Of a stretch of DNA of 64,000 bases, positions 62,006 through 63,525 are shown one piece after another; the stretch's first letter is position 1; every line of letters starts with the position of its first letter. The notes below the pieces were generated by a model, which worked only from the letters and a program-made list of their open reading frames with translations, did not search any database and was not told the origin of the DNA. The position numbers were made by a program, and so were the translations under genes. The DNA is from Salinibaculum litoreum. Lineage in GTDB: Archaea; Halobacteriota; Halobacteria; Halobacteriales; Haloarculaceae. Where the stretch lies: the NCBI GenBank assembly GCA_009789175.1, contig CP046866.1, forward strand, positions 1,178,001-1,242,000, given 5' to 3'.

Positions 62006-62182
62006 GGGCTCGTGGCCTAGTCCGGGAAGGCGGCTGACTCCAGAGGCTACGCGCCTGGGACGAGACTCCAGCTGATATACTGAGCGGTCCGGCTGATCAC
62101 CGGCCGTGTTGATGACCCTCTGGAGTTCCGAGGCGCAACCGGAGATATCAGCCGATCGGGGGTTCAAATCCCTCCGAGCCCA
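62006..62182 (+). tRNA. tRNA-Trp (CCA) with 103-nt intron
   Basis: The acceptor GGGCTCG pairs with CGAGCCC (62175-62181) plus discriminator A. The D-stem GCC/GGC and anticodon stem GCTGA/TCAGC are intact, the loop CTCCAGA carries anticodon CCA at 62040-62042, and the T-loop is TTCAAAT. The intron lies at the canonical 37/38 position. Confidence 0.93.
62044..62146 (+). ncRNA. tRNA-Trp intron with C/D-box-like guide sequence
   Basis: 103 nt, the length known for haloarchaeal tRNA-Trp introns. It has a box C-like TGATGA (62110-62115) and several CTGA box D-like motifs (62072, 62080, 62093). In haloarchaea this intron guides 2'-O-methylation of the anticodon region of its own tRNA, C34 and U39; that role is inferred from the known case. 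Confidence 0.8.
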
Positions 62183-62251
62183 TTCCGTCCTTCAAGCTTT
62201 CTCTGGGTTATTTACGGGAGAATTCCTTGCGGTCCACAGGGGGTGGTCTGC

Positions 62252-62368
62252 GTGATTTCTGACACTCCCGAAGCAGTTGAGACGGACATCTGCGAGTTCT
62301 GCGGTGGCATCATCGAGTCGCCCGCTCAGGACTGCCCTGCGCTCACTGACGGGTGGTGTCGGCCGTGA
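62252..62368 (+). CDS. Small 38-aa zinc-finger-like protein
   Basis: A 38-aa frame, GTG at 62252 to TGA at 62366-62368, with CEFCGG near residue 14 and two later cysteines in AQDCPALTDGWCRP. The pattern suggests a small zinc knuckle. It overlaps the SWIM protein gene by 4 nt (GTGA), which supports real translation. Short overlapping genes with GTG starts are typical of haloarchaeal viruses and plasmids. Confidence 0.6.
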   Translation: MISDTPEAVETDICEFCGGIIESPAQDCPALTDGWCRP

Positions 62369-62931
62369 GCACTGGACCAGCACAGGCGGCCGACTGGGAG
62401 CCGTCTGACGCGCTCGACGAACGCCTCACCGACCCCGAGCGGCTGGCGTTCCCCGAGGACTACACGCACACCGAGTCGTGGCAGCGGGCCATCACCGAGC
62501 GCAACGAGCACGGCGGCCCCATCAACGAGGCCGAGCGCATGGTCTGGTTGGAGGACAGCGACAAACCGAAGCGCGTGCTCTTCGCGCTCATCGAGGACGA
62601 CCTCCACGCCGAGTGTGGCTGTGCGTCGTGGCAGTATCGGGACTGGTGCGCCCACGTCGCTTGGTGCTGGTGGAAGTGGGTGCGCGGTCACATCATCGTC
62701 CACCACATGGACACTGGCCGGGACTACCGCCACCCGCCGGCATGGCTTCAGTTCAGTGGCGACCGAGACCGCGACGTGAGTGGGCTGACGCCAGCCGAAC
62801 TCGACGCCTATCTCACCTGCGACCTGGCCGGCGTCGGCGTCACTGAGTACGCCGACGCCACTGACCGAGTAAAAGGCACCGTCGGTAACCTTCTGTCCCG
62901 AGCGAGGGTGAAGGTGGAGGGCGAGCGATGA
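62365..62931 (+). CDS. SWIM zinc-finger domain protein
   Basis: A 188-aa protein. The SWIM motif CXCXnCXH is ECGCASWQYRDWCAHV near residue 90, followed by an aromatic cluster AWCWWKWVRG. The C-terminal half (LTPAELDAYLTCDLAGVGV) is helical. SWIM domains bind DNA or proteins; haloarchaeal mobile elements often carry such proteins. It starts with a GTG coupled to the upstream small gene and overlaps the next gene by 4 nt (ATGA). Confidence 0.74.
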   Translation: MSTGPAQAADWEPSDALDERLTDPERLAFPEDYTHTESWQRAITERNEHGGPINEAERMVWLEDSDKPKRVLFALIEDDLHAECGCASWQYRDWCAHVAWCWWKWVRGHIIVHHMDTGRDYRHPPAWLQFSGDRDRDVSGLTPAELDAYLTCDLAGVGVTEYADATDRVKGTVGNLLSRARVKVEGER

Positions 62932-63101
62932 CGGCCAACGCGCGTGCGGAAATCGGCCGCGGGCGCGAAGCGGGGGCTACCCCTGGGAGGGGTGTGTACC
63001 CCACGTTGCACAGCGCGGGCAAATCGCAAGACGTGGCCGCTTCGGATGTGTGTACACACGACCCCGATTTGTGTACACACGGAGGTGGTCGACGTGAGTA
63101 A
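62928..63101 (+). CDS. Short 57-aa frame overlapping the operator region
   Basis: A 57-aa frame, ATG at 62928 and TAA at 63099-63101, starting in a 4-nt overlap with the SWIM gene and ending inside the next gene. It encodes two CTH repeats (CTHDPDLCTHG) because it reads through the two palindromes at 63048-63079. Overlap on both sides supports translation, but the palindromes may constrain the sequence rather than the protein. Confidence 0.4.
   Translation: MTANARAEIGRGREAGATPGRGVYPTLHSAGKSQDVAASDVCTHDPDLCTHGGGRRE
63048..63079. promoter_or_regulatory. Twin palindromic operators TGTGTACACA
   Basis: Two perfect palindromes, 63049-63058 (12 bp if extended to 63048-63059) and 63070-63079, starting 21 bp apart, about two helical turns. 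They lie 15-45 nt before the GTG of an RHH protein, with the ribosome-binding-like GGAGGTG at 63081-63087 between. This layout fits autoregulation by the RHH dimer. Confidence 0.6.
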
Positions 63102-63525
63102 GCAGATTCACGACGAAGGTCGGCGCGAGTCCAGCCGGTCGACACAGGTGCGCTTTCGCGCTTCCGAGGAACTCGTCGAGACGTACGACGACGCTGTAGA
63201 AGAATCCGACTTCGGGAGTCGGAGTGAAGCCCTGCGCTCAGGGATGCGGGAGTTCATCGGGGCAGACTACGGCGGCTCGACGCCGCTCGAACCGCCGAAA
63301 GAGGAGCCGCTTCGGACTGCGTACATCAAACTCTGCGAACTGGCGAATGCCGACGGCGTGATTCGGCACGACATCGCGGAAAACGAGTTATCGACGATGC
63401 TCGGGAAGCGAAAACGCACCGTCAACCACTCAGTTCTCGGGAAGCTCCGAAGCCGGGGCTACCTGCACCACGTTGCGAACGTCTACGGAGACCGTAGCTG
63501 GGGACTCACGGGGTACGAGTCATGA
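63094..63525 (+). CDS. Ribbon-helix-helix regulator with C-terminal winged helix
   Basis: A 143-aa regulator. The N-terminal RHH unit has SSRSTQVRFRASEELVETYD and then SEALRSGMREFIG. The C-terminal ~75 residues (RTAYIKLCELANADGVIRHD, NHSVLGKLRSRGYLHHVANV) resemble a winged helix. The GTG start has GGAGGTG 6 nt upstream, a clear ribosome-binding site. The twin palindromes in front suggest it represses its own operon, as repressors of haloarchaeal elements do. Confidence 0.77.
   Translation: MSKQIHDEGRRESSRSTQVRFRASEELVETYDDAVEESDFGSRSEALRSGMREFIGADYGGSTPLEPPKEEPLRTAYIKLCELANADGVIRHDIAENELSTMLGKRKRTVNHSVLGKLRSRGYLHHVANVYGDRSWGLTGYES

Follow-up and report, generated by a model that had tools for sequence, protein, structure and literature searches.

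The window, by which we mean the whole stretch of 64,000 nucleotides of Salinibaculum litoreum DNA that was analyzed, includes near its end a tRNA gene, the beginning of an integrated element, and a regulator gene preceded by a set of repeated palindromes. These features are located as follows.

62006-62182, plus strand: intron-containing tRNA-Trp gene, the integration site (found by Rfam, missed by default ARAGORN)
62169-62184: attL repeat TCCCTCCGAGCCCATT; the attR copy is at 83112-83127, beyond the window
62353-62931, plus strand: upstream gene coding for a SWIM zinc finger and a sigma70-region-4-like HTH, related to NVIV1 ORF16
62979-63002: G-run or imperfect hairpin ACCCCTGGGAGGGGT, abutting the distal site
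62993-63002: putative operator site 1 (distal, degenerate), TGTGTACCCC; offset of 56-57 bp kept in 11/11 loci
63020-63034, minus strand: spacer element ACGTCTTGCGATTTG, conserved in the regulator family
63048-63059: putative operator site 2, perfect 12-bp palindrome GTGTGTACACAC with core TGTGTACACA at 63049-63058; position conserved in 11 loci
63070-63079: putative operator site 3, perfect palindrome TGTGTACACA; position conserved in 11 loci
63081-63087, plus strand: Shine-Dalgarno sequence GGAGGTG of the regulator gene
63094-63525, plus strand: regulator gene, GTG start at 63094, 143 amino acids; RHH strand at about residues 17-21, helices at 25-37 and 43-56, winged helix at 73-138

Both major capsid proteins of SNJ1 (tblastn, 3e-60 and 1e-44) and its packaging ATPase (2e-68) have relatives, by homology only, in the element that includes the regulator gene. 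VP2 and VP5 are also recognizable among the element genes and, on account of the capsid, VP2, and packaging ATPase relatives, the element can be considered a simulovirus-like provirus (62169-83127) integrated at the tRNA-Trp gene. The final 14 nucleotides of this tRNA gene are repeated inside the 16-nucleotide repeat at 83112, which comes just after a tyrosine integrase gene whose end is at 83049, and the element is therefore bounded at 20.96 kb. The recognizable pair of major capsid proteins, VP2, VP5, and the packaging ATPase are shared with the Simuloviridae (SNJ1, NVIV1, HJIV1), whose described members, in contrast, reside as episomes (PMC12642351). The known members have in addition a MazE-type ORF4 switch, whereas tblastn found no match to SNJ1 ORF4 or NVIV1 ORF14 in the element, an absence that is weak evidence for such short proteins. 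Instead of the extrachromosomal circular genome of 16-19 kb that is characteristic of that family, we found an integrated element of 20.96 kb with a tyrosine integrase gene and a transposase-like gene. The latter (79044-80510, beyond the window) was judged from sequence only, and because of it the provirus may be partly disrupted. The gene at 62353-62931 resembles a fusion of an NVIV1 ORF18-like N-terminal portion and an ORF16-like sigma70-region-4 C-terminal portion, although the ORF18 match was seen in the relatives and not in the window copy.

The two copies of TGTGTACACA are 21 bp apart, and the second one stops 1 nucleotide short of the Shine-Dalgarno sequence of the regulator gene. Each is part of a 16-nucleotide repeat unit, GATGTGTGTACACACG and GATTTGTGTACACACG, with an identity of 15/16 (one mismatch). 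No other copies of TGTGTACACA are present in the complete 3.73-Mb genome, where the reversed pattern, a control of equal composition, occurs once, and a scan of the provirus for further exact sites found none beyond the twin pair. Sites separated by 21 bp, that is, two helical turns, share one face of the helix. The imperfect site TGTGTACCCC, which adjoins the G-run, is 56 bp upstream of site 2; this distance does not correspond to whole helical turns, and the distal site may therefore act differently. The sequence-only reading had described twin palindromes 21 bp apart before the ribosome-binding site of an RHH protein, and the pair was found exactly so, but its count of two sites falls short by the degenerate third one.

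The 143-amino acid protein by itself showed no significant match in Pfam, including none to RHH. Pfam RHH_1 was matched by six of the seven aligned family members (best 3e-6), and a profile of seven family members matched the RHH domain of NikR (1q5v) at 2e-4. A nearly full-length match of the regulator was found with phrog_22505 (6e-20), a family to which PHROGs gives no function. The AlphaFold model (mean pLDDT 75.7) includes both RHH helices and the well-predicted winged helix; the RHH strand forms in the dimer, whereas the model is that of a monomer. The search of PDB structures with the regulator returned weak generic winged-helix matches only, none at E<=0.001, and no solved structure with an RHH-winged-helix fusion came up in the PDB or profile searches. 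The regulator joins an N-terminal RHH domain to a C-terminal winged helix: the earlier assignment to the RHH class holds through the family matches and has to be completed with the winged helix, which had been overlooked. By alignment with NikR, residues Q17, R19, and R21 of the RHH strand are the expected base-contacting positions.

Relatives of the regulator were recovered by whole-genome search, while neither peptide-seeded scans of genome and viral contigs nor tblastn searches of phages and plasmids recovered any. Six close homologs (loci L006-L011) have identities of 43-52%. All six adjoin a tRNA gene, that for Pro in three of them and those for Trp, Gly, and Ala in one each, and in the 20 kb examined around them clear simulovirus capsid and ATPase genes were found in four. 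The sequence-only reading had named the absence of the palindromes from close homologs that keep the protein as evidence that would speak against it; all six have paired sites 20-22 bp apart before the regulator or its operon. The sites are GTGGTACCAC-like in L006, L009, and L010, they are TGTGTACACA and TGTGTACCCA in L011, and L007 has CTAGTACCAC twice. In L008, which is nested in the same clade and has the residues S-S-S at the strand positions, ATTAAT is found twice in the same layout, 21 bp apart. Other genes separate the sites from the regulator in L009 and L007, and there the sites precede the first of those genes; since they head the operon, an operon operator is favored and a coding repeat disfavored. 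A reading of the palindromes as a 7-codon repeat (VCTHDPD/LCTHGGG) of a small overlapping ORF (62928-63101) was rejected because relatives have spacings of 20 and 22 bp, which disrupt the reading frame.

The strand triad Q-K-R or Q-R-R is present in 11 of the 75 family members having loci, namely the window, five close homologs, and five distant ones. Each of these 11 loci includes three GTAC-centered sites, mostly GTGGTACCAC, with 56-57 bp between the distal and second sites and 20-22 bp between the second and third. At least two GTAC-centered sites in the operon leader are found in 11/11 members with the Q-K/R-R triad versus 0/64 of the others, an association for which the Fisher test gives 2e-13 uncorrected for kinship. 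In a tree built without the triad columns the triad and the operator each change four times, and the three well-supported independent contrasts are all concordant, three pairs being too few to reach significance (sign test, p=0.25). Other subfamilies have, by eye, different repeated sites in the same layout; for K-T-R and R-A-R the automatic test found no clear repeated site. Over the wider family, the distal site fits its own proximal region above those of other subfamilies (p=2e-5 over loci and 0.003 over triad groups), in a test weakened by its automatic misplacement of the distal site in several loci. As judged from these comparisons, the sequence of the sites co-varies with the predicted contact residues. 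The triad leaves the difference between TGTACA and GGTACC unaccounted for, as L011 is Q-K-R but carries TGTGTACACA.

When the search was reversed, starting from the sites, pairs of TGGTACCA with a gap of 12-14 nucleotides were found 10 times among 394 haloarchaeal genomes, and pairs of the reversed control ACCATGGT never. Eight of these 10 pairs lie directly upstream of a member of the regulator family or of its operon, and the remaining two precede an Era-like GTPase gene. Pairs of GTGTACAC at about the spacing of the window were present in only 2 of the 394 genomes, here and at one unrelated place. A chance origin of the palindromes was rejected in view of their uniqueness in the genome and of these pair searches.

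Taken with the conserved geometry, these data make it quite probable (about 0.82) that the sites are operators to which an autoregulatory RHH-winged-helix repressor binds cooperatively. One RHH dimer would occupy each palindrome and read its half-sites through the strand residues Q17, R19, and R21; two dimers 21 bp apart would lie along one face of the helix and could bind cooperatively. The bound dimers would cover the stretch immediately before the ribosome-binding site, which probably includes the transcription start. Transcription would be blocked in the Shine-Dalgarno region or slightly upstream of it, the operon of the regulator being autorepressed, with the distal site serving as an auxiliary one. 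This autorepression would form part of the lysogeny control of the tRNA-Trp provirus. We infer binding, repression rather than activation, and the role in lysogeny, as well as cooperativity, the latter because of the two-turn spacing and the known behavior of RHH proteins. The autorepression layout proposed from the sequence is thus supported by the sites of the six close homologs and by the eight TGGTACCA pairs that lead back to the family. The further proposal of a control switch can be kept for a local autoregulatory operator but not for control of the element as a whole. Since the provirus has no further exact site, control of other promoters would be indirect or exerted through weak sites.

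The repeated palindromes before the protein's own gene, at a two-turn spacing that suits cooperativity, are what is found in RHH repressors with tandem operators, and dyad repeats in helical phase before their own gene or operon are typical of autoregulatory RHH repressors. The present locus departs from them in having three sites, at 56 and 21 bp. Within the group of CopG, MetJ, Arc, and NikR, the N-terminal RHH domain is homologous to that of NikR, but a winged helix takes the C-terminal place of the ACT domain. Viral RHH proteins are known from hyperthermophiles, such as SvtR, AvtR, and F55 of SSV1, the last of which maintains lysogeny; RHH factors of archaeal viruses are reported to bind several sites, their own promoters included (PMC5569661). 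The regulator is like SvtR, AvtR, and F55 in being virus encoded and in having several sites, here predicted ones, including its own promoter. SvtR and F55 have sites at other viral promoters too, while no other was found in the present provirus.

Several other functions of the repeats were considered. The G-run hairpin and the palindromes could be a replication origin, bipartite as that of the betapleolipovirus SNJ2, with a hairpin for the nick site and repeats bound by an initiator; SNJ2-type origins are reported to have such a hairpin beside a variable palindrome near one end of the element (PMC13107129). No replication protein was identified in the element, a fact that can be cited in favor of such an origin. 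An SNJ2-type rolling-circle origin, however, has an essential conserved hairpin and an initiator gene, and no initiator was recognized among the element proteins scanned. Although the G-run is common across the regulator family, the hairpin ACCCCTGGGAGGGGT is not: L007 loses it yet keeps the sites, and its fold is no better than that of shuffled sequences. As the sites, moreover, co-vary with the RHH residues and stand directly in front of the leading gene of the operon to which the regulator belongs, we regard an origin as very improbable.

At the RNA level, the two copies can pair into a stem of 11 bp immediately ahead of the Shine-Dalgarno sequence, and the repeats could be a hairpin of the mRNA that hides or exposes it. 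This is very improbable: the fold is not above shuffles (z -0.37), and the degenerate distal site, at a distance of 56 bp, plays no part in it. Furthermore, the variants in L009 (TGTGGTACCACA and AGTGGTACCACT) and L069 (GTGGTACCAC and ATGGTACCAT) keep the symmetry within the site and not that between sites, although over all variants the count is just 44/66 within sites versus 39/66 between them. The palindromes could also be bound by another protein, either the upstream HTH protein (62353-62931), whose gene has homologs upstream of the regulator in all six close relatives, or a host regulator, and the TGGTACCA pairs before the Era-like GTPase gene in two genomes would agree with another binder. 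Against this, the site sequence tracks the RHH triad, and a host regulator would be expected to have sites elsewhere in the genome, where there are none, so that we give it hardly any weight. Plasmid partition systems also have RHH proteins that act on phased repeats adjacent to the gene encoding them, and TubR and AspA are among the weak winged-helix matches of the structure search, but a partition centromere with an RHH centromere-binding protein is extremely improbable given that there are only three sites, that no partition ATPase or GTPase was recognized among the element proteins scanned, and that an integrated element needs no partition. A pleolipovirus gene found after an HTH gene was considered as a homolog of the regulator and rejected, as the two are not similar by eye.

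RHH regulators with tandem operators are a known kind; the present variant is undescribed, with an unusually clean comparative signal, and our search of the open-access literature found no report of this three-site operator. Operators are known for few of the proteins that regulate lysogeny in haloarchaeal viruses. It is conceivable, though we hold the idea only tentatively, that an undescribed and widespread haloarchaeal family of RHH-winged-helix proteins acts on integrated simulovirus-like proviruses as their control system, by way of a fixed three-site operator whose sequence co-evolves with the strand triad, a natural specificity code that would set immunity groups and replace the ORF4 switch. 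Because the geometry is fixed while the operator sequence and the predicted contact residues vary across relatives, both an RHH recognition rule and the immunity grouping of archaeal proviruses become directly testable.

No convincing TATA/BRE was identified near the operator sites, and we infer the placement of the operators relative to the promoter. The spacer element ACGTCTTGCGATTTG, which could be the core promoter or a site for another factor, has a single occurrence in the genome at zero mismatches. It is also found on the minus strand in L006, L009, L010, L057, and L061, and on the plus strand in L008 and in many other subfamilies, relative to which it is inverted in most of the clade of the window.

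The two TGGTACCA pairs that precede the Era-like GTPase gene (L121 1501-1530 and L123 1501-1530) have a spacing of 22 bp, belong to haloarchaeal genomes of different families, and are unrelated to the provirus gene. Among the distant members of the regulator family, L016, L031 (G019), and L103 (G418) are each present in their genome as three or four copies of equal score, which suggests that they are recently moving elements.
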